Assembly (NCBI RefSeq): GCF_017094485.1
Contig: NZ_CP064786.1
Location: 496,001 to 560,000 of the forward strand
Direction of reading: 5' to 3'
Source: Natranaeroarchaeum sulfidigenes
GTDB lineage: Archaea > Halobacteriota > Halobacteria > Halobacteriales > Natronoarchaeaceae
Length of the DNA stretch: 64,000 nt
Part shown: positions 52,921 to 64,000 of the stretch, one piece after another
Layout: every line of letters begins with the position of its first letter
Position numbering within the stretch: the first letter of the stretch is position 1
The notes under the pieces: model-generated
What the model was told of the DNA's origin: nothing
Seen by the model: the letters and a program-made list of their open reading frames with translations, nothing else
The model's database searches: none
Made by a program: the position numbers and the translations under genes

Positions 52921-53071
52921 TATACAGGACAACCCAGACCCGTGAACAGCAGCTATCATTAAGTGTAAGTCACAGCACTCTGACCCCCTCCACGACCACG
53001 CCGATGACAACGATTACCCGAACCGACGTCGCGTCCGTGCCGATCCCGAACGCCGACGCCTGCTAGTTGCG

Positions 53072-53512
53072 ATGGGCGGTGCCGGAACCATCGCGATTTC
53101 GGGTTGTCTCGGCCTGTTCGACGACGAAGAGGACGAACCGGAAGAAGACGAACCCGAAGAGGAAGAAAACGGCGAGGAAGACGAACCCGAAGAAGAGAAC
53201 GGCGAAGAAGAAGCCGCCGAAATGTACGAAGTCGAGTTCCTGGAGTTCGACGAGACCATCGAGGTCGATGAAGAGGAAGCGCTGCTCTACGCCGGACTGG
53301 ACGAGGGGTGGGATCTGCCCTACGCCTGCGAAGCCGGCACCTGTGGCCAGTGTACGGCCCGCTACGACGGGGATGCCAACGAGGTTATTAGCCACGACGG
53401 CAACGAGTACCTCGACGACGAGCAGATCGAGGACGGCTGGTTCCTCACCTGTGTCGGCTACGCCGAGGACGACTTAGCGATGGAAACAAACGTTCATCCC
53501 GACGACGACTGA
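53072..53512 (+). CDS. Exported 2Fe-2S ferredoxin, Tat lipoprotein with start problem
   Basis: Residues from 53072 give MGGAGTIAISGCLGLFDDEE, a lipobox SGC. An acidic linker of about 30 residues and a plant-type ferredoxin domain follow, with CEAGTCGQC and a later Cys in FLTCVGY (CX4CX2C...C). The twin arginines (DPERRRLLVAMGG) lie upstream of this ATG in an open frame that has no ATG, GTG or TTG back to a stop at 52943. An ATG at 53004 is out of frame by one base. If one base were restored after it, the protein would start MDNDYPNRRRVRADPERRRL. So the true gene probably begins at 53004 with a frameshift or error. Confidence 0.75.
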   Translation: MGGAGTIAISGCLGLFDDEEDEPEEDEPEEEENGEEDEPEEENGEEEAAEMYEVEFLEFDETIEVDEEEALLYAGLDEGWDLPYACEAGTCGQCTARYDGDANEVISHDGNEYLDDEQIEDGWFLTCVGYAEDDLAMETNVHPDDD

Positions 53513-53535
53513 GCGCTCTCCGATCTACTCGCGTT

Positions 53536-56007
53536 CTACTTTCTTCTGGTCCGGTCCCACACGACGAGCAGACTCGGTAACACCAGTACACTCGCGAGGA
53601 ACGCGTAGGCAACCACGATTGCAGTGACGATGCCAAAGCGCTGGAGCGATGGCACCAGGGTCAGCGCGAGGAGTCCGAACCCGACGGCGGTCGTGATCGC
53701 GCTGGCGAGGACCGCCCCACCCGTCTCGCGGAGTGTTACCTCCAGCGCGTCGCGCAGTCCTGCCCGCTCGCGCTCGGCGAGGAATCGCTCGGTCAGGTGA
53801 ACGGTGTAGTCCGTGCCGAGTCCGACTGCGATCGCGGTGATCAGTGCTGTCTCGGCGTTGTACGGCAACGAGAGCGCAGCCATCGTCCCTATCAGCCACG
53901 CGATCGCAGCGACCACTGGTGCGACCGTTATCGCCCCGAGAAGCCACGACCGGTGTCGGGATCGGAAGACGACTGTCAACAACGCTCCGATGACGGCGAG
54001 CGCGAGCAGAAACGTCAGCAAGACAGTTTCGAGCACCGCCCGCTCCTGGACATCGTCGAGAATCGGTTCGCCGGTTACGACGGCGGTCAGTTCCGGATGC
54101 GTCTCGACCGCGTCCGTGATCGCCACCGCATCGCTTCGGATAGCCGAGTCATCGGCCGACTCGTCGACGACGACCGAGAGTCTAACCGCCTCGTAGGCAC
54201 CGCCGTCGGTCCGGTTGATCGTCGCCGCCGCGGCATCGCGATCTGCCTCATAGACCGCGTCGAAGACGGTCGCGAGGTCCTCATCGGGGACGCCGTCGCC
54301 GGTCGTATCGTGCTCGTCGACGAGCTCCGCGACCGTTTCGTTCTCTGCCGCCACGTCCTCGATCGTCCCGAGCGGGCTCTCGACCGGGCCCCCGCCGTCG
54401 ACCGGCGTCCCCGTGGTGTCCATCGCCGACGCGTTCGTCTCCGCCGCCTGCAGCGCTTGAGTGACGGAGTCGTCCGTCACGTCCCCCTCGATCCATACCT
54501 CGACGGTCCGGTCAGTGTGGCGCGGGAACGTCTCCTCGAGAAACGTCGCTTGCTCTCTGAGACCGTACGCATCCGGGCGAATCTCCGCCGGTAACTGCTC
54601 CATCCAGCCGGACCGTTCCTCGGGGAAGAAGTCGCTTCGCTCGGTGGAGGTATCTACTGCTGTTGCGCCCATTGCCCCACCGACCGTGAACAGGAACGCG
54701 AGGACGAGGACCGCCAGTGGTGCGCGTGCGACGAGTCGGGCGCACTGATCCAGCGGTCGCGCAACGATACCCAGAGAACCAACCGTTGGCGGAGCCCGAT
54801 CCGACTGTCGTTCTCGCTGGTGGAGCAGTTCGTCGATCTCGACTCTGAGCGCCGGGATCAGGTAGCCGAAGACGACAAACGCCGACACGATGCCAAGGCT
54901 GGCGACCAGACCGAACTCCCGCAGGATCTCGATCGGGCTCACGAGTCCAGTGAGAAAGCCGGCTGCAGTCGTGACCGTCGTCGTCCCGATCGCAACGAGC
55001 ACCCCGGCGAGTGCGATCGACATGGCTGCTGCTGGCCGGAAGGATGGATCATCTCCCCGGGTTTCGCGGTACCGCATCACGACGTGGAGGTAGTAATCGA
55101 TTCCGAGTCCGACCAGTAGACACGGCACAGCGATGAGCAACTGGTTGAACGGACGGCCGAGCCAGCCGAGTATTCCCGCGAGCCAGACGAGGACGACGCC
55201 GATCCCGACGGATGCCAGTAGCACGTCCAGTGGATCACGGTATGCGACAACCAGCATCGTCAGGACGACCAGCACGATCAGTGGGCCGACCACAGCGAAA
55301 CTTTCGGCCGTCGCCTGTCCACCGCGCTCGAAGAGTAACGCTTCGCCGAAGACGAACGAGTCTGTCCGCTCCAGCCGATCGTCGGCGAGCGACTCGATCT
55401 GCTGTTGGGCATCCAGTAGCTCGTCGTCGGTGGCGTCCTCGTCGTGGACGACGATCAGCAACTGTGCGGATGCCGGTTCCTCACCGTGAGCATAGTTCTC
55501 CGGCAGCAGCGCGGACACCGGGGGCTGTCCCTCGGGAGTCATCTCGTCGTCACGAAGGGCAACCGAGAGCGCTGCCGCCGTCTGTTCGTCGGTTCGCCCG
55601 TCCAGTGCACTTGCTTTGTCCGCTATTGTAATCTCTTCGGCAAAGGCGATCCGCGGATCGGACGCGACCGCGACACCGTTTGCGACACCGACCGTCGGTT
55701 GTGGTCCGTCGAGCGTCCCGTTGATTGTTTCGTCATCCCTGATCGCTTGCTGGAGCGTGAGTGTTTCTTCAAGCGCTGCCGTCGAGGCAGTGTCGTTCTG
55801 GTCGGAGGTGATAACGACCTGTGTGATCTGTTGCTCCCCGGTGTCGAAGGATTCAGACAGCTGGTCAGCGGCCGCACGTTCATCGGATTCAACCGCGAAG
55901 GTTGTGATTTCGACCCCACCACCGACAAAGAGGATGCCGCTCCCCAGAGTGACCGTCAGGGCACACAAGAGGACAATTCGTACTCTTCGCCGTCTGGTGG
56001 TGTCCAC
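53536..56007 (-). CDS. RND/MMPL family exporter (second copy)
   Basis: The protein is about 823 residues from GTG 56007. TATA AATATATATT (56031-56040) lies 26-33 bases upstream, so a leaderless GTG is favoured over the long frame to 56151. It has two halves, each with an external domain and six helices. Motifs GLGIDYYLHVVMRYRET and GLGTDYTVHLTERFLAERER are the MMPL helix-4 pair. It is only distantly similar to the copy at 3266, and has no CARDB partner or TetR neighbour. Confidence 0.87.
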   Translation of the reverse strand: MDTTRRRRVRIVLLCALTVTLGSGILFVGGGVEITTFAVESDERAAADQLSESFDTGEQQITQVVITSDQNDTASTAALEETLTLQQAIRDDETINGTLDGPQPTVGVANGVAVASDPRIAFAEEITIADKASALDGRTDEQTAAALSVALRDDEMTPEGQPPVSALLPENYAHGEEPASAQLLIVVHDEDATDDELLDAQQQIESLADDRLERTDSFVFGEALLFERGGQATAESFAVVGPLIVLVVLTMLVVAYRDPLDVLLASVGIGVVLVWLAGILGWLGRPFNQLLIAVPCLLVGLGIDYYLHVVMRYRETRGDDPSFRPAAAMSIALAGVLVAIGTTTVTTAAGFLTGLVSPIEILREFGLVASLGIVSAFVVFGYLIPALRVEIDELLHQRERQSDRAPPTVGSLGIVARPLDQCARLVARAPLAVLVLAFLFTVGGAMGATAVDTSTERSDFFPEERSGWMEQLPAEIRPDAYGLREQATFLEETFPRHTDRTVEVWIEGDVTDDSVTQALQAAETNASAMDTTGTPVDGGGPVESPLGTIEDVAAENETVAELVDEHDTTGDGVPDEDLATVFDAVYEADRDAAAATINRTDGGAYEAVRLSVVVDESADDSAIRSDAVAITDAVETHPELTAVVTGEPILDDVQERAVLETVLLTFLLALAVIGALLTVVFRSRHRSWLLGAITVAPVVAAIAWLIGTMAALSLPYNAETALITAIAVGLGTDYTVHLTERFLAERERAGLRDALEVTLRETGGAVLASAITTAVGFGLLALTLVPSLQRFGIVTAIVVAYAFLASVLVLPSLLVVWDRTRRK

Positions 56008-56242
56008 AGTGAACCTTGTTTCCACAGGAGAATATATATTCTCAATTCTAGGGCCGATCTCTCCGATTGCGTCGGTCTTCCACACCGGAACTCGCGATGC
56101 GCCACACCGCGACTCGATTGAAACATCGGCTTGTGAATGGCGAGTATTCACCTGCCGCCTCAGTAGTTAGCACGGAATTCCACGCTGAATGCTACGTCCT
56201 TTGAGGCGTAGCGTACATAATCCCGGGGACCGTCCCACGAGT

Positions 56243-57004
56243 ATGCGACTCAATAACAAGACAGTTCTTATCACGGGATCGGGCTCGGGAATCGGCCGCG
56301 CGAGCGCGCTCCGCTGTGCTGAGGAGGGTGCGACGGTGATCTCGACCGATGTGGACGGCGACGCGGCCGCCGAAACCGCCGCCGAGATCCGCGAGGCGGG
56401 CGGGAGCGCGGACCACTACGAGTTCGACGTGACAGATGCCGACGCGTTCCGGGCCGCAGTCGAGGACACTGCCGAGACGTACGGGCTTGACGTCCTGGTC
56501 AACAACGCGGGGATCGGCCAGCCACCGAGCAGAATCGAGGACGTCGACAAGTCCGTGCTGGACTACGTGATCGACGTCAATCTCAAGGGACCGTGGAACG
56601 GCACACACGCTGCCCTGCCGATCATGCGAGAACAGGGACACGGCACAATCGTCAACATGTCCTCGCTGGCCGGGCAACTCGGCTTTCCGTACCAGTCGGT
56701 GTATGCGCTGACCAAGGCAGCAGTCATCAACTTCACCCGGGCTACTGCCGCCGAAGCCGGACCCGACGGCGTCCGGGCGAACGCGATCTGTCCGGGCTTT
56801 ATCGACACGCAGCTCGCTGATGCGTACTTTGCCGGTCGAAGCGACCCCGAGGCTGCTCGTGAGGAGATGGTACAGGACTACCCGCTCCGGCGGCTGGGCG
56901 AGGCCGAGGAGATCGCCGACTGCGTTGTCTTTCTCGCTAGCGAAGAATCATCCTTTGTCACCGGCCACGCGTTGACGGCCGACGGCGGGTACTCGATCTC
57001 GTGA
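56243..57004 (+). CDS. Short-chain dehydrogenase/reductase (FabG-like)
   Basis: This 253-residue SDR has the NAD(P) motif TGSGSGIGRAS, the LVNNAGIG motif, catalytic Ser in SSLAGQLG and YxxxK as YALTKAA, and a C-terminal TGHALTADGGYSIS. Asp in STDVDGD after strand 2 favours NAD(H). The substrate is unknown. ATG 56243 lies about 26 bases after a TATA-like ACATAATCC (56214-56222). Confidence 0.92.
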   Translation: MRLNNKTVLITGSGSGIGRASALRCAEEGATVISTDVDGDAAAETAAEIREAGGSADHYEFDVTDADAFRAAVEDTAETYGLDVLVNNAGIGQPPSRIEDVDKSVLDYVIDVNLKGPWNGTHAALPIMREQGHGTIVNMSSLAGQLGFPYQSVYALTKAAVINFTRATAAEAGPDGVRANAICPGFIDTQLADAYFAGRSDPEAAREEMVQDYPLRRLGEAEEIADCVVFLASEESSFVTGHALTADGGYSIS

Positions 57005-57118
57005 CCGGCGGCGTGTATTGCCCGTATCATCGGACAATGTACAGTAATTATGTGGCAATAGTAGAATATGCAGACATTATACCGCGATCTTATACCATTG
57101 TGTCCAATCTGATTCGGC

Positions 57119-58150
57119 ATGGCAACGAACTCCGGACCGGACGCAGAACAACAGCCCACCGACACGGAAGACGACGAGACAACCTCGGATTCGTATCCGA
57201 CGAGTTATGGCGGCATACACACGTTCCTCAGAGCGCCAGCGTGTGAGCCATCGGAACTGACTTCGGATGTCGACGTCGGGTTCGTCGGCATTCCGTTCGA
57301 TGGTGGCGTCACGCGAGAACCCGGCGCTCGTCATGGGCCGTCGGCGCTGCGAAAATCAAGCGCCTGGCAGGGGCGTCGGTTTCACTCGGACACGGAGGCG
57401 GTATCGCTCCCCACCGAGCGGACGGCCAACTACAGCGACGTGACGCTCAGAGATTGCGGCGATGCGCCAGTCGTCCCAAACGACATCGAAGCGACCGCCG
57501 AGAAGGTGACGGAATACATGGAATCGGTCGCGGCGAAGACGATGCCCGTGATGCTCGGTGGCGATCATTACCTCACGTATCCGGCGTTCGTTGGCTATGC
57601 GAACACTGTCAAGGACGATGTTGGTCTGATCCATCTCGATGCTCATTCGGACACGTCTGACGACAGCGATCTCTACGGAAAGCACTATCATGGCTCGCCG
57701 ATGGCCCGGATCGACGAGTCCGAGTATGGTAGCTACGACAACCACGCCATGATCGGTATCCGTGGCCACTCACGCCCCTCGTTTCTCGATATTCTCGAGG
57801 AGCGCGATCTCTACGTTGATTACGCGACCGACGTTCACGACAAAGGGATCGAGGCGAGCGTACAGGGTGCGATCGACCACGTCACCGAGAACGTGGATCA
57901 CGTCTACCTGACGATGGACATCGATGTCGTCGATCCCGGCTTTGCACCGGGCACTGGCACCCCGGAACACGGCGGATTGACCAGCAACCAGTTCCTGCGC
58001 GCTGTCGACCGGCTTGGCGCGTGTGATGCCATCGGTGCTGCCGATCTGGTCGAGGTCGCACCACGACTGGACACCGGCAACACGACCTCACTTCTCGGAT
58101 CGAACGCGGTGAGCCGGTTGCTCGAAGCGAAGTTCTACGAATCTACGTAA
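57119..58150 (+). CDS. Ureohydrolase (agmatinase family), paralogue 1
   Basis: This 343-residue protein is a ureohydrolase with full bimetal site ligands: His150 in GGDH, Asp174/His176/Asp178 in DAHSD, and Asp267/Asp269 in MDIDVVDP. The N-terminal 35 residues are acidic and variable. The loop after DAHSD (DLYGKHYHGSPMARID) is unlike that of classic agmatinases and closer to guanidinobutyrase-like enzymes. It hydrolyses a guanidino group to urea and an amine. ATG 57119 is about 27 bases from CTTATACC (57091-57098), leaderless. Two paralogues follow on the opposite strand. Confidence 0.85.
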   Translation: MATNSGPDAEQQPTDTEDDETTSDSYPTSYGGIHTFLRAPACEPSELTSDVDVGFVGIPFDGGVTREPGARHGPSALRKSSAWQGRRFHSDTEAVSLPTERTANYSDVTLRDCGDAPVVPNDIEATAEKVTEYMESVAAKTMPVMLGGDHYLTYPAFVGYANTVKDDVGLIHLDAHSDTSDDSDLYGKHYHGSPMARIDESEYGSYDNHAMIGIRGHSRPSFLDILEERDLYVDYATDVHDKGIEASVQGAIDHVTENVDHVYLTMDIDVVDPGFAPGTGTPEHGGLTSNQFLRAVDRLGACDAIGAADLVEVAPRLDTGNTTSLLGSNAVSRLLEAKFYEST

Positions 58151-58270
58151 GGTCGTTTCGTGGCTCGTCCCGGGATTGGCTGCGTGAAATGCAGAACGCT
58201 TTTTCACCACGGGAGCTACAAATGGACTCGGCTTTTTTGCCTGTTCCCCGGCTCTACGACCGGCCGTTCA

Positions 58271-59272
58271 CTACTGGGTGTCCTCGTAGAAGTACGATTC
58301 CAGGAATCGCGTGAGAGCGGTCGCACCCACCAGTGAGGTCGTTCCGGCCGGATCCTCCGTCGGGAGCACCTCCACGAGATCGACGGCACCGATCGCGTCG
58401 CACTCGCCGAGCAGGTCCGCAGCCCGGAGGAAATCGTTGCTGGTGATCCCGCCGGGCGAGGGCGTGCCGGTGCCGGGTGCAAACGAGGGATCCACGACGT
58501 CGATGTCCATCGTCAGATACACCTGATCGACACCGTCGGTCGCGTGCTCGATTGCCCCTTCGATACACGCTTCGATCCCCTTCTCGTGGACATCTCTCGC
58601 GAAGTCCACGTACAGTCCCTCGTCGTCGACGATATCGAGGAACTCCATGTCAGCATGGCCCCGGATCCCGACCATCGCGTGGTTCTCGTACCCGCCGTAC
58701 TCCGTCTCGTCGATCCGGGCCATCGGCGAGCCGTGGTAGTGTTCGCCGTAGAGGTCGCTCTCCCCCCAGGTATCCGTGTGTGCATCGAGATGGATCAGGC
58801 CGACATCGTCCTCGACGGCGTTGGCGTAGCCGACGAACGCCGGGTACGTGAGATAATGATCGCCGCCGATCATGATCGGCATCGTCTGTTCGGATACGGT
58901 TTCGGAAAACTCGACGACGGACTCGTAGGTAGCCTCGATATCGTTCGGAACGACCGGCGCGTCGCCACAGTCACGAAACGTGATCTCGTCGTAGGCCGCA
59001 CTTCGATCCGTCGCGATGTTGTAGGATTTCCTGTCGGACTCGAAGGTGTAGGATCCCCGACGGGCAGTTGCCGCGCGGAGCGCCTCCGGGCCGTACCGGG
59101 TTCCGGGCTTGTTCGATACTGCTCCATCGTAGGGGACACCGTACACTGCCGCGTCGACACTGTCGTCTATCTCCTCTGGTTCGGCGGTATCGGCCCCCAG
59201 AAACGTTTTGACACCGGAGTAGCCCGGACTATCACGATCTCTGAACTTCTCTTCTGGCTCAGCTCTGGCCAT
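58271..59272 (-). CDS. Ureohydrolase (agmatinase family), paralogue 2
   Basis: This 333-residue paralogue has intact metal ligands His139 (GGDH), Asp163/His165/Asp167 (DAHTD) and Asp256/Asp258 (MDID). It is closest to the third copy (59555) over its whole length, including the shared start GYSGVKTFLG against GYSGVKTFFG and an identical segment KPGTRYGPEA. ATG 59272 lies about 27 bases from the minus-strand TATA TTCATTAAC (about 59297-59305). It converges with paralogue 1. Confidence 0.87.
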   Translation of the reverse strand: MARAEPEEKFRDRDSPGYSGVKTFLGADTAEPEEIDDSVDAAVYGVPYDGAVSNKPGTRYGPEALRAATARRGSYTFESDRKSYNIATDRSAAYDEITFRDCGDAPVVPNDIEATYESVVEFSETVSEQTMPIMIGGDHYLTYPAFVGYANAVEDDVGLIHLDAHTDTWGESDLYGEHYHGSPMARIDETEYGGYENHAMVGIRGHADMEFLDIVDDEGLYVDFARDVHEKGIEACIEGAIEHATDGVDQVYLTMDIDVVDPSFAPGTGTPSPGGITSNDFLRAADLLGECDAIGAVDLVEVLPTEDPAGTTSLVGATALTRFLESYFYEDTQ

Positions 59273-59554
59273 ACTACCAACTGCCGCCGCATAGAGTTAA
59301 TGAACATAGTTCAAATAATACTTGCAGCAAGGCAAAGCATTAGGTACTAATAGGCATAGTTAGATACGATCGGTCAGCGGTTCGGTATTCTGATCACGGT
59401 TTGCAAAATTATTTACTCGCCGTTGCTGAACGTTCCTCAGAACGCCGGTGCTGTCAGCCGTGCCGCGGACCAAATTGTCGATCACCGGAATCGAGGCGCT
59501 ACTGTCTCTTCCTTGACGAGCGCCGACGCCATGAGCAGACGGGGGAGAGAGCGG

Positions 59555-60541
59555 TCACTCCTCGTAGAAGTACGACTCGAAGAACCGTGATAGCGCGTTC
59601 GCTCCGACCAGCGAGGTCGTTCCGGCCGGGTCCTCGGTCGGAAGCACCTCCACGAGATCGACGGCACCGATCGCGTCGCACTCACCGAGTCGGTCGGCCG
59701 CGCGGAGGAGGTCGTTACTGGTGATCCCGCCGGGAGCTGGCGTCCCGGTTCCCGGTGCGTACGACGGATCGACGACGTCGATATCCATCGTCAGGTAGAC
59801 GTGATCGACACCGTCCGTCGCGTGTTCGATAGCATTCTCGATGCAGGCTTCGATTCCCTTCTCGTGGACGTCTTTGGCGTATTCGATGTGGAGGCCCTCT
59901 TCGATCGCATCGAGGACTTCCATCCGACTGTGCCCCCGGATCCCGACCATCGCGTGGTTCTCGAGGCCACCGTATTCCGTGTCTGCGATACGACTCATCG
60001 GCGAGCCATGATAGTGCTCTCCGTAGAGGTCGCTCGATCCGATATCTTCGTGGGCATCCAGATGGATGATGCCGATATCGTCCTCGACCGCGTTAGCGTA
60101 CCCGACGAAGGCAGGATACGTGAGATAGTGATCCCCACCGATCATCACGGGCATCGCTTCTGTCGCGATCGTCTCGGCATACTCGACGACCGACTCGTAC
60201 GTCTCCTCGGTACTGTTTGGCGTAACAGGCGCGTCCCCACAGTCCCTGACCGTCACCCCATCGTAGGAGGCTGTTCGATCGGTTGCGATACTGTATCGCT
60301 TCTTATCGGAGTCGAAGACGCGCGAATAGCGGTTCGTCGCCGTTCGCACGGCCTCGGGTCCGTACCGTGTGCCCGGTTTGTTCGTTACGGCACCATCGTA
60401 GGGAACGCCGTACGCCGCGACATCGACAGTCCCGTCTAGCTCCTCCGGCTCCACGCTGTCGCCCCCAAAAAAGGTCTTGACGCCCGAGTATCCTGGTCGA
60501 TCCCTGTCCGCGAACCTGGTTGTTTGCTCTGATTTTGCCAC
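59555..60541 (-). CDS. Ureohydrolase (agmatinase family), paralogue 3
   Basis: This 328-residue paralogue has His138 (GGDH), Asp162/His164/Asp166 in DAHED, and the MDID pair, so the metal site is intact. It differs from copies 1 and 2 by a shortened, changed loop after the second motif (DAHEDIGSSDLYGEHYHG), which may alter the substrate pocket. It lies 282 bases upstream of paralogue 2 and downstream of the MFS gene on the same strand. Confidence 0.87.
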   Translation of the reverse strand: MAKSEQTTRFADRDRPGYSGVKTFFGGDSVEPEELDGTVDVAAYGVPYDGAVTNKPGTRYGPEAVRTATNRYSRVFDSDKKRYSIATDRTASYDGVTVRDCGDAPVTPNSTEETYESVVEYAETIATEAMPVMIGGDHYLTYPAFVGYANAVEDDIGIIHLDAHEDIGSSDLYGEHYHGSPMSRIADTEYGGLENHAMVGIRGHSRMEVLDAIEEGLHIEYAKDVHEKGIEACIENAIEHATDGVDHVYLTMDIDVVDPSYAPGTGTPAPGGITSNDLLRAADRLGECDAIGAVDLVEVLPTEDPAGTTSLVGANALSRFFESYFYEE

Positions 60542-60686
60542 AGTTGTACAAACATTCGTGCAGTCATATACGATATTGTTCCCGCCATTTTTGCGATGCG
60601 GCCTCGATATGGACGAATAGGTTTTTCATGACTCGGCAAGCCGGTGGCTGTCGTATTCCGAAGTCAGGATACTTGGAATCGACCGG

Positions 60687-61955
60687 TTAGTCCGCAGCTT
60701 CTACCGTGCTGTCAGTGCCGCCGGTTTTCGGGAACAGCTTCCCCGTCGAAACGTAGAGTCCTACGACCAGCGCAACGCCAGCAAACAGCGGGAACCCTGC
60801 AGAAACGGTGTACACCGGGACGAATCCGATACTCTCGATCAACGGTAACGCAATGATCGGGCCGAGCCCACCCCCGATATCGCTGAACACGTTAGTCGTC
60901 CCGCTCGCCCGTCCCATCCGCTCTTCCGGCGTGAGATCCGCAAGCAACGCCATGTAGGGGCCAAGTGTCCCACCCATGCCTGTGCCGATGACTACACACA
61001 CCGGAGCGAGCTGACGTGCCGACTCCGCCCACGGTAACAGCACGAATCCGACCGTCAGGAGACTCAGAAACACGAGCATGACGGGTACCCGCGAGTCCCA
61101 CGTATCGCTCGTTTTCCCACCGATCAACATCGACACGGCAGCCGACAACACGGTCAGCGCCATGAAGATCCCCGACGAGCCCTGCGCGTCGAACCCGAGC
61201 GCTCCGATACCGGTCGCCTCGAGGAAGAGCACGAGCGACGCAAACAGGACACCCATATACGCAAACCAGATGCCGAAGTTCACCAGGCCAAGCGTCAGCG
61301 TCGGGATGCTCGTGTCGATGTCCCACGGCTTGACCGATCGGCTCGTCCCGTCCTCGACGTGCGTTTCGGGAATCGTCCAGTACGCAAGGCCGGTGGCGAT
61401 GACGGCAAAGACAGCCGCCACGAAAAACGCCGCCGACATGCCGATGAGATCACTGACGACGCCGCCGACCAGCAGTCCGGTCGGGAAGCCGAGGATACTG
61501 CCGCCGCGAATGAGCCCCATTTTCATCCCCCGGGAGTCCCCGACGCTGACGTTTGCTGCGATCGTGTAGGAGGTCGCGAACGTGAGTGCACTGGCGGCCC
61601 CGAGGACGATCCGCGAGCCGAGGAACCACGCCTCCGGGAGCGGCACGTACAGTGCGACGATGTATCCAAACGTCGCGATGGCCTGGATTCCCAGACCGAG
61701 GACGTACGGGGTGCGCGCCCCGAACCGATCGACGATGGCTCCCGCCGGTGCACTACAGATGAGGCGTGAAAAGCGGTTTGCACTCAGTATGACCCCGACC
61801 AGAAACGGCGAGATCCCGAGGATCGTTCCGAGTGCCGGAAAGATGGGGAACACGACGCCGCCGCCAAAGCCCGAGAAGAACGTCGAAACGAGCAGCGAAA
61901 AAATGATGAACCACGAGGATCGCTCTGTCACTGCTCCCTCGTCGTTCTCGCTCAT
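60687..61955 (-). CDS. MFS transporter (DHA1-like)
   Basis: This 422-residue protein has 12 helices. It has SANRFSRLICSAPAGAIVDR and RFGARTPYVLG between helices 2 and 3, and LTPEERMGRASGTTNVFSDI in the second half. This fits drug:proton antiporter-like members. It lies between the ureohydrolases and the Eis-like gene, all on the minus strand. It may export the amine product or another cation. Confidence 0.87.
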   Translation of the reverse strand: MSENDEGAVTERSSWFIIFSLLVSTFFSGFGGGVVFPIFPALGTILGISPFLVGVILSANRFSRLICSAPAGAIVDRFGARTPYVLGLGIQAIATFGYIVALYVPLPEAWFLGSRIVLGAASALTFATSYTIAANVSVGDSRGMKMGLIRGGSILGFPTGLLVGGVVSDLIGMSAAFFVAAVFAVIATGLAYWTIPETHVEDGTSRSVKPWDIDTSIPTLTLGLVNFGIWFAYMGVLFASLVLFLEATGIGALGFDAQGSSGIFMALTVLSAAVSMLIGGKTSDTWDSRVPVMLVFLSLLTVGFVLLPWAESARQLAPVCVVIGTGMGGTLGPYMALLADLTPEERMGRASGTTNVFSDIGGGLGPIIALPLIESIGFVPVYTVSAGFPLFAGVALVVGLYVSTGKLFPKTGGTDSTVEAAD

Positions 61956-62003
61956 AGTGACACTCGGAACGGGGACCCGTGGTTCGTGACGCCGAAATCA
62001 GGG

Positions 62004-63197
62004 TCAGAACCGATCACGAATGTACACCGGTGTAGCGGGGAACAGCCGATCGAGCGTTTCGGTGGCGTTTCCAGTGGCATCCAGCCGCCCGGCCCGGGCG
62101 AGGGCGGTCGCCGAGCGATGTCCCACGGCGAGCTGGGAGAGCGCGGCGATATCGAGCCGTGCAGTCGGGTCCGCGACGGTCGGCTCACAACGGCCAGTAG
62201 CGTCGCTCACTGACAGACGGAATCGCCCGTCGTTCCAGTCGGCGAAATCGTCGCTAACCGACAGGACGATCTCGTCCTCGACCGCGGGATAGGAAAGTGC
62301 CGACAACGTCGATTCGACATCGACGACCCGAACCATCGGCCCCGTACTGAGCGTACACTCGACGTCGTCGGGCGATGTGAGGAGATCTCGAAACACGGAG
62401 TCGTCCGCCGCGTGGAACTCGATCGTATCCGCCTGCGAATCGTGGTTGTAACAGAACGCAAGCACGGCGTGTAACGCTTCCTCGTCCGTGTAGGCGAACT
62501 CCCTGACCTTCATCGTGCGACTGTGGTAGTCACCGGTGAAGCGAAACACGAGATACGCGCGGGGCTCGCCGTCCTTGAACCAGGCATACACGTAGGGGTC
62601 GTTGTCGCGGCTGTAACAGACACGGTGACGCCACCACTCGGCATCCCGTTCGATAGTCAGCGAGTAGTTGTCCGAGAACGACTCGTACACCGGTGCAACG
62701 GTATCGAACGAATCGACGCCGAGTTGTCTATACTCACCAGCAGCGCCGAGAGTCTCGGCCGCGAACGCGAGTGTTTCGACCGGACACTCGTAGTTCCGGA
62801 CTTCGTTGGCAGTATCCCACCCGAACGATCGATAGAAGCCGTAATCGAAGGGGCGAAGGATCGAGAAGTGCCGGTCCCGTTCCTCGTACTCGGTGAGCGT
62901 CTCCGCGAGGATCTCGGAGACGTAGCCGTTTCTGCGGTGTTCAGGCGGTGTGATGACCGAGGTCAGCCCCGCTCCGGGATGGGTCTGTCCGCGGACCGAG
63001 ACGTCGAACCAGTAGTGTCGACAGATTGCAACCGGCTCTTCCTCACCGTCGACGTACAGGCCGCGACGGTCCCCGATCGGTTTCCGAATATCGTCCGGAT
63101 CGAACTCCACGGGGCCGTTCTGCGGCCTGAACCCGTACTGCATGTACTCGTAGACCGTTTCCGCGCCGTCGTCGTCGATCTGTGTGTACTGGCCCAT
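62004..63197 (-). CDS. Eis-like GNAT N-acetyltransferase
   Basis: This protein of about 397 residues has an N-terminal GNAT domain with the acetyl-CoA loop VITPPEHRRNGYVSEILAET and DYGFYRSFGWDTANEVRNYE. A second GNAT-like domain and a C-terminal SCP2-like sterol-carrier domain follow, as in Eis. Eis acetylates amines of aminoglycosides, polyamines or peptides. The ATG at 63197 follows the ABC permease stop by one base, so the two are one operon. Acetylating amines such as agmatine or putrescine would fit the neighbourhood. Confidence 0.87.
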   Translation of the reverse strand: MGQYTQIDDDGAETVYEYMQYGFRPQNGPVEFDPDDIRKPIGDRRGLYVDGEEEPVAICRHYWFDVSVRGQTHPGAGLTSVITPPEHRRNGYVSEILAETLTEYEERDRHFSILRPFDYGFYRSFGWDTANEVRNYECPVETLAFAAETLGAAGEYRQLGVDSFDTVAPVYESFSDNYSLTIERDAEWWRHRVCYSRDNDPYVYAWFKDGEPRAYLVFRFTGDYHSRTMKVREFAYTDEEALHAVLAFCYNHDSQADTIEFHAADDSVFRDLLTSPDDVECTLSTGPMVRVVDVESTLSALSYPAVEDEIVLSVSDDFADWNDGRFRLSVSDATGRCEPTVADPTARLDIAALSQLAVGHRSATALARAGRLDATGNATETLDRLFPATPVYIRDRF

Positions 63198-63198
63198 A

Positions 63199-63993
63199 TT
63201 ACCAGAGCTGCCCATCAAGTTTGAAGTCGATAATCAGGATGATGCCAACTGTTACTACCATGTAGATCACGCTGATCGCCGCGATCGACGGGTCGTAGCC
63301 GTACCGCAGCATCGAGAATATCAGGATCGGGACCGTTTCCGTTCCCGGTCCGCTCACGAACAGCGCGACCAGATATTCGTTGAGGGAGATGATGAACACG
63401 AACAACAGCCCGATGACTACGTTGGATGCGATCAGCGGTACTGTGATGGTCCGGAGCGTCTGCGTCCGGCTCGCACCGAGGATTCGTGCGGCCTCCTCGA
63501 CTGCGCCGTCTATCTCGTCGAGACCGGAGCTGATCATGATAAACGGGAACGGCGAGAAGAGGACTCCATGAGCCAGCACGATCGCAAGAGTTGTCCCCCA
63601 GATATCGATGATCAGGAAAAACGCCATGAGTCCGACGGCGATGATGACCGGCGGTACCAGAATCGGGAGCACGGCCAGTCCCCAGATCGATTTCGAGTAG
63701 CGAATGTCGTATCGGTTGAGACCGAACGCAAGGGCACCACCGAGGGCTGTCGCGAGTATCGACGCCGCGACTGCGACAGTTACCGATAGCTGGATTGCAC
63801 TCAGCCAGTTTGCACTGCCCAGGATTTCAGCGTAGTACTGGAGGGAGAACCCTTCGGGTGGGAACTGCAGGAAATCACCGGCCGTAATCGATACGGCGAC
63901 GATGATCACCAGCGGTATAGCAAGCGCAAGGATCGCTATGGCGATGTACAGATTCGCCAGAATGGACCCGATAGACTGCCACGGAATCGACAA
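63199..63993 (-). CDS. Polyamine/iron-type ABC transporter permease (PotC-like), possibly 5' truncated
   Basis: This frame of at least 264 residues has six helices. The BPD permease EAA loop EEAARILGASRTQTLRTITV is followed by VPLIASNVVIGLLFVFIISL. Only a TTG at 63993 could start it inside the window, and the frame remains open to the edge, so the true start may lie beyond. PotC-like permeases work with PotA ATPase, PotB permease and PotD binding protein, which are presumably further upstream on the minus strand. The substrate may be a polyamine or guanidino compound, given the three ureohydrolases. Confidence 0.83.
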   Translation of the reverse strand: MSIPWQSIGSILANLYIAIAILALAIPLVIIVAVSITAGDFLQFPPEGFSLQYYAEILGSANWLSAIQLSVTVAVAASILATALGGALAFGLNRYDIRYSKSIWGLAVLPILVPPVIIAVGLMAFFLIIDIWGTTLAIVLAHGVLFSPFPFIMISSGLDEIDGAVEEAARILGASRTQTLRTITVPLIASNVVIGLLFVFIISLNEYLVALFVSGPGTETVPILIFSMLRYGYDPSIAAISVIYMVVTVGIILIIDFKLDGQLW

Positions 63994-64000
63994 TCCCGTA

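Follow-up and report, generated by a model that had tools for sequence, protein, structure and literature searches.

Three Intact Ureohydrolase Paralogues next to Genes for a Pot-Type Importer and Urease at a Candidate Guanidino-Compound Salvage Locus of Natranaeroarchaeum sulfidigenes

Introduction

Several described ureohydrolases resemble the three proteins considered here, designated U1, U2, and U3. GpuA (3NIP) and GbuA (3NIO) of Pseudomonas aeruginosa have the superfamily, the catalytic residues, and the GTGTP motif in common with U1-U3; however, the lid of U1-U3 is about 9 residues longer, and loop A is gapped differently. GdmH (7ESR/7OI1, 9FEK), whose product is urea, belongs to the same superfamily and has the same metal ligands. 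The signature of a guanidinase consists of Thr105, His222, Trp313, and Glu344 (N. inopinata numbering, PMC11410670). Metformin hydrolase (8RYI, 8SNF) is encoded by adjoining ureohydrolase genes in a nickel-linked setting, as are U1-U3. Metal ligands have been lost from its beta subunits, and its alpha and beta subunits are 33% identical (PMC11399263). In contrast, U1-U3 include no degenerate subunit and are much more alike (62-77% identity).

Two further groups occur in haloarchaea. SpeB of the HVO_2299 type, encoded beside the aIF5A gene, is of the same superfamily and is found in the same genome as U1-U3. It differs from them in its neighborhood, with only about 30% identity, and is linked to aIF5A modification (PMC5178350); in Haloferax volcanii, the speB gene also lies directly behind that of aIF5A (PMC5178350). 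Closer to U1-U3, at about 41-48% identity, are the "agmatinase family" proteins of a sister clade (clade B), some of whose loci also carry a Pot importer. These differ from U1-U3 in being single copy, in having NrpR-like regulator and aminotransferase neighbors, and in their lid. A literature search for guanidinobutyrate use by haloarchaea found no paper.

Results and Discussion

The window analyzed here is a stretch of 64,000 nucleotides (genome positions 496001-560000) from a 3.04 Mb genome in a single contig, termed G000. As shown in Table 1, U1-U3 lie near its end. The initial annotation's description of three agmatinase-family genes with complete dimetal ligands is borne out. All three proteins match PF00491 with 236-241 bits (cut-off 22), and each contains the full HDHDDD set of metal ligands (H139, D163, H165, D167, D256, and D258 in U2 numbering) together with the catalytic H180 and E301 (same numbering). 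Judged by these residues, U1-U3 are intact and apparently working ureohydrolases. Relative to U2, identity is 77% for U3 and 62% for U1, which indicates that the three are tandem duplicates rather than a chance cluster. The dN/dS values between G000 and its congener G046 range from 0.016 to 0.068, consistent with purifying selection and suggesting that all three copies are maintained. AlphaFold2 run on U2 with a three-row alignment gave a mean pLDDT of 35.9.

Table 1. Genes of the ureohydrolase locus. Positions are those of the window unless marked as genome positions.
Feature	Position	Strand	Description
SDR-family dehydrogenase	56189-57004	+	upstream of U1; as a neighbor kept in G046 only
U1	57119-58150	+	ureohydrolase (PF00491), 343 aa; first of the three paralogues to branch; dN/dS 0.046 versus G046 orthologue
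U2	58271-59272	-	ureohydrolase, 333 aa; active-site loop DAHTDTWGESDLYGEHYHG with Trp169; dN/dS 0.016; orthologue in Halovenus sp. LUM.6
U3	59555-60541	-	ureohydrolase, 328 aa, GTG start; loop DAHEDIGSSDLYGEHYHG, 1 residue shorter; dN/dS 0.068; orthologue in Halovenus sp. LUM.6
MFS carrier	60687-61955	-	probably last gene of the Pot-Eis run; beside U3 also in G046 and Halovenus sp. LUM.6
Eis-type N-acetyltransferase	62004-63218	-	Acetyltransf_9, Acetyltransf_17, and SCP2_2 domains; overlaps the potC end
PotC-like permease	63199-64000	-	cut by window edge; genome 559199-560044
PotB, PotA, PotD	genome 560025-563228	-	after PotC, past window edge

None of the three proteins reaches any of three curated ureohydrolase cut-offs. 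U1, U2, and U3 score 153.5, 155.9, and 153.1 bits with the agmatinase equivalog TIGR01230 (cut-off 174.3), 98-113 bits with the arginase model TIGR01229 (cut-off 227.6), and 131-150 bits with the formimidoylglutamase model TIGR01227 (cut-off 229.15). The two other PF00491 genes in G000, speB, directly behind the aIF5A gene, and rocF (arginase), both score above curated cut-offs. Because separate SpeB and RocF proteins are encoded, U1-U3 are not the housekeeping agmatinase or arginase and are surplus to both functions.

The best solved relatives of U1-U3, all of low identity, are 3-guanidinopropionase (GpuA, the best match of U1 and U2), guanidine hydrolases, proclavaminate amidinohydrolase, and guanidinobutyrase; the nearest solved enzymes thus act on guanidino acids, proclavaminate-pathway compounds, or guanidine. 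Specificity residues include Tyr157 of GpuA and Met161 of GbuA. Arg72 of GbuA is another (PMC9772407). Loop A and the lid of U1-U3 differ in length from those of both enzymes, and the alignment at the specificity residues is ambiguous; substrate prediction from single residues was therefore dropped. In our tree, which contains long branches and to which this statement is confined, U1-U3 do not group with GbuA and GpuA, and the haloarchaeal clade forms a separate branch with 100% support (100/100).

A profile of U1-U3 was searched across 392 haloarchaeal genomes. Clade A, defined by E below 1e-120 and including U1-U3, was found in 11 of the genomes, and the sister clade B was found in 75. The lid and loop A of clade A give no confident alignment to any characterized enzyme. 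Among the 392 genomes, the triplet is confined to G000 and G046, and the closest haloarchaeal relatives of U1-U3 are single-copy genes. A collection of named genomes yielded one close relative, a 3 kb contig of Halovenus sp. LUM.6 that carries MFS-U3-U2 and ends there; the remaining loci, of 80 in all, are about 25-33% identical. In the tree, the triplet is united at 100/99 support; U1 splits off first and U2 and U3 separate later, both duplications predating the divergence of the three species. As read from this topology, the triplet is one clade derived from two lineage-specific tandem duplications.

The neighbors of the paralogues extend past the window. PotD, PotA, PotB, PotC, Eis, and MFS are encoded in this order on the minus strand from genome position 563228 down to 556687, and the gene set of a Pot-type importer is complete within this one run. 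The MFS carrier, Eis-type protein, and PotC-like permease reported initially beside the ureohydrolases are all present. The PotC and Eis genes overlap, and the proposed operon of the two is the tail of the longer run. The PotABD components, which had been suggested as neighbors to look for, were found past the window edge, and the neighbors are conserved with the paralogues in G046, which keeps the full PotDABC-Eis-MFS-U3-U2-U1-SDR block. In G386, G169, and G055, PotD-A-B-C is followed immediately by the only clade A gene of the genome; these three, with G000 and G046, make up the Pot-linked genomes. An apparent PotC-ureohydrolase fusion in G386 (a 641 aa open frame) was rejected as an out-of-frame extension, PotC being in another frame.

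Genome positions 563575-572074, just past the window, carry a complete set of urease genes in one operon together with a metal ABC importer and NikR. The operon was read from its ORFs as ureB, C, A, G, D, E, and F, of which UreC alone was scored against a model (828 bits; cut-off 680). Beyond it lie the ZnuA/ABC-3 metal importer and NikR, followed by a second MFS carrier, which is about 15 kb away from the first and 60% identical to it, and by an amidohydrolase. Each of the five Pot-linked genomes has ureC, as compared to 108/392 haloarchaeal genomes overall, with a Fisher p of 0.0015 that serves as a guide only, since the five genomes are not independent, and with the ureC of G386 incomplete in the search. 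In G000, G055, and G169, about 7-12 kb separate the urease from the ureohydrolase, and NikR and a metal importer accompany the urease in G000 and G046. In G046, the urease and its own NikR and metal importer are on another contig, which shows that physical linkage is not obligatory. Clade A members without PotDABC mostly lack urease, which is present in one of six (G027). The metal importer at L007:240-3174 (ZnuA and ABC-3 parts) is divergent from NikR and adjoins the urease; it may be a nickel importer derived from a family of zinc type.

These comparisons also yielded several side observations. Between G000 and G046 (L120), identity across 53000-63200 is a mosaic in which tracts of about 98-100% (53.0-56.2, 58.5-60.5, and 61-62 kb) alternate with about 90%. 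Unlike these tracts, PotABCD is near 80% identity (dS 0.04-0.08 versus 0.8-0.9). To judge from these values, the mosaic looks like recent exchange between species. A further ureohydrolase adjoins the urease in G055 and G386 (L125:16643-17752 and L143:3562-4671), together with neighbors that resemble, by eye, a PhoU-like regulator and an SSS-type symporter. Of the solved proteins, GdmH comes nearest to the G055 protein (E 4e-60), which nevertheless has GTGEP rather than GTGWP. The single-copy Pot-ureohydrolase operons of G386 (L122) and G055 (L125) occur together with BiuH-like isochorismatase-family hydrolases, an amidase, a metallo-beta-lactamase-fold protein, and a cytochrome P450, which suggests a more complex nitrogen compound. 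Another clade A group (L128-L131) is found with a different ABC importer and, by eye, an aldehyde ferredoxin oxidoreductase, and some of its loci also have an FAD oxidase, a nitrilase-family amidase, and an M20 peptidase. Apart from these, and in favor of a nitrogen-salvage role, clade B genes adjoin an NrpR-like nitrogen regulator at 11/29 loci and a GABA-type aminotransferase at 7/29, a setting that, by context, fits nitrogen recovery from guanidinobutyrate-like acids.

Both the gene content of the locus and the way it recurs together with PotDABC and urease argue for nitrogen salvage from one or more linear guanidino compounds, involving the Pot-type importer, U1-U3, and a Ni urease, and we regard this as the probable function. 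The importer (PotD-A-B-C) would take up a linear guanidino compound. U1-U3, as di-metal ureohydrolases of a haloarchaea-specific clade, would convert its guanidino group to urea, releasing an amine, and the urease encoded beside the importer would hydrolyze the urea to ammonia and CO2. The substrate may be a guanidino acid, such as a guanidinobutyrate-like compound, or another linear guanidino compound. The reaction and transport direction are putative, as are a partial split of substrates and the parts played by Eis and MFS. Pot-type importers carry many cargoes, and the specificity of the SBP is unreadable from sequence, which weighs against this reading. The guanidino-compound catabolic locus posited from the window sequence is supported by the single-copy relatives behind PotDABC in three genomes and by urease, which occurs in every Pot-linked genome and nearby in three.

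The same genes could instead handle agmatine or polyamines, with Pot importing agmatine, U1-U3 forming putrescine and urea, Eis acetylating the amine, and MFS exporting it. Eis-type enzymes acetylate amines. PotA scores above the cut-off of its polyamine subfamily, and the nearest match of PotC is spermidine/putrescine PotC; moreover, agmatine is a main polyamine of Haloferax volcanii (PMC5178350). However, PotA scores higher with the aminoethylphosphonate model PhnT2, though below its cut-off, which renders the cargo ambiguous. U1-U3 remain under the agmatinase cut-off that the SpeB encoded elsewhere passes, and Eis and MFS are associated with the locus only in this genus, being absent from the other Pot-linked loci. 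We therefore consider agmatine handling unlikely. A second alternative, which overlaps with guanidino-compound salvage, is that U1-U3 hydrolyze the same compound, the extra copies merely raising dosage or answering to different promoters. The three are in-paralogues (77% and 62% identity), each with its own upstream region, and such redundancy is a serious possibility, although short of an even chance. It is at odds with 22 differences between U2 and U3 that are fixed in three species. Substrate-facing positions (53), comprising the lid, loops A and B, and a strip that runs to GTGTP and slightly beyond it, were delimited with loops picked from published ureohydrolase structures (PMC8125230, PMC9772407). 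Half of the fixed differences (11/22) fall within them, as compared to 13/98 other variable positions (p 0.0004, a value that flatters because the exact borders were drawn with the alignment already seen). In addition, where E. coli agmatinase has Tyr155 and human arginase has Asn130, U2 carries Trp and U1 carries Ser, and the residue is deleted from U3. This pattern makes different substrates plausible and favors some division of substrate range between the paralogues, although loops vary for other reasons too.

Free guanidine is unlikely to be among these substrates. A GdmH-type function would agree with the retained Thr/Ser, His, and Glu of the proposed guanidinase signature and with the urease, NikR, and metal uptake nearby. 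However, the guanidinase-specific Trp is replaced by Thr270 (GTGWP to GTGTP) in all three proteins, on which ground membership in the GdmH guanidinases was ruled out. GdmH also occupies its own long branch in the tree, and an Rfam scan of the locus (E up to 1) gave no match to a guanidine riboswitch or other RNA; hydrolysis of free guanidine is thus very improbable. Accordingly, the earlier suggestion of different guanidino substrates retains the indirect support of the U2/U3 loop differences, but its inclusion of guanidine is not supported. The final alternative is an active heterohexamer of two or three paralogues, as in metformin hydrolase. Ureohydrolases form hexamers in which the lid comes from a neighboring subunit (PMC9772407, PMC8125230), and the paralogues are conserved together. 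In contrast to metformin hydrolase (PMC11399263), no subunit of U1-U3 has lost its metal site, the identities among them are far higher, and the closest relatives are single genes. A mix of working and dead subunits of the metformin hydrolase type is consequently unsupported, and the mixed oligomer raised initially by analogy appears doubtful, although a mixed hexamer made up of working subunits is conceivable.

Conclusions

The chemistry attributed to U1-U3 is of a known kind; the clade and its triplication represent a new variation on it. If guanidino-compound salvage is correct, the locus could, tentatively, represent the first archaeal guanidino-acid utilization system, with a triplicated ureohydrolase split by compound, a dedicated Pot-type importer, and coupling to urease. 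Haloarchaeal genomes contain many "agmatinase" annotations with no assigned substrate. For many clade A and clade B proteins, this name is probably wrong, because they occur in nitrogen-salvage contexts and are distinct from the housekeeping SpeB. The triplet offers a compact test of how ureohydrolase substrates change following duplication.
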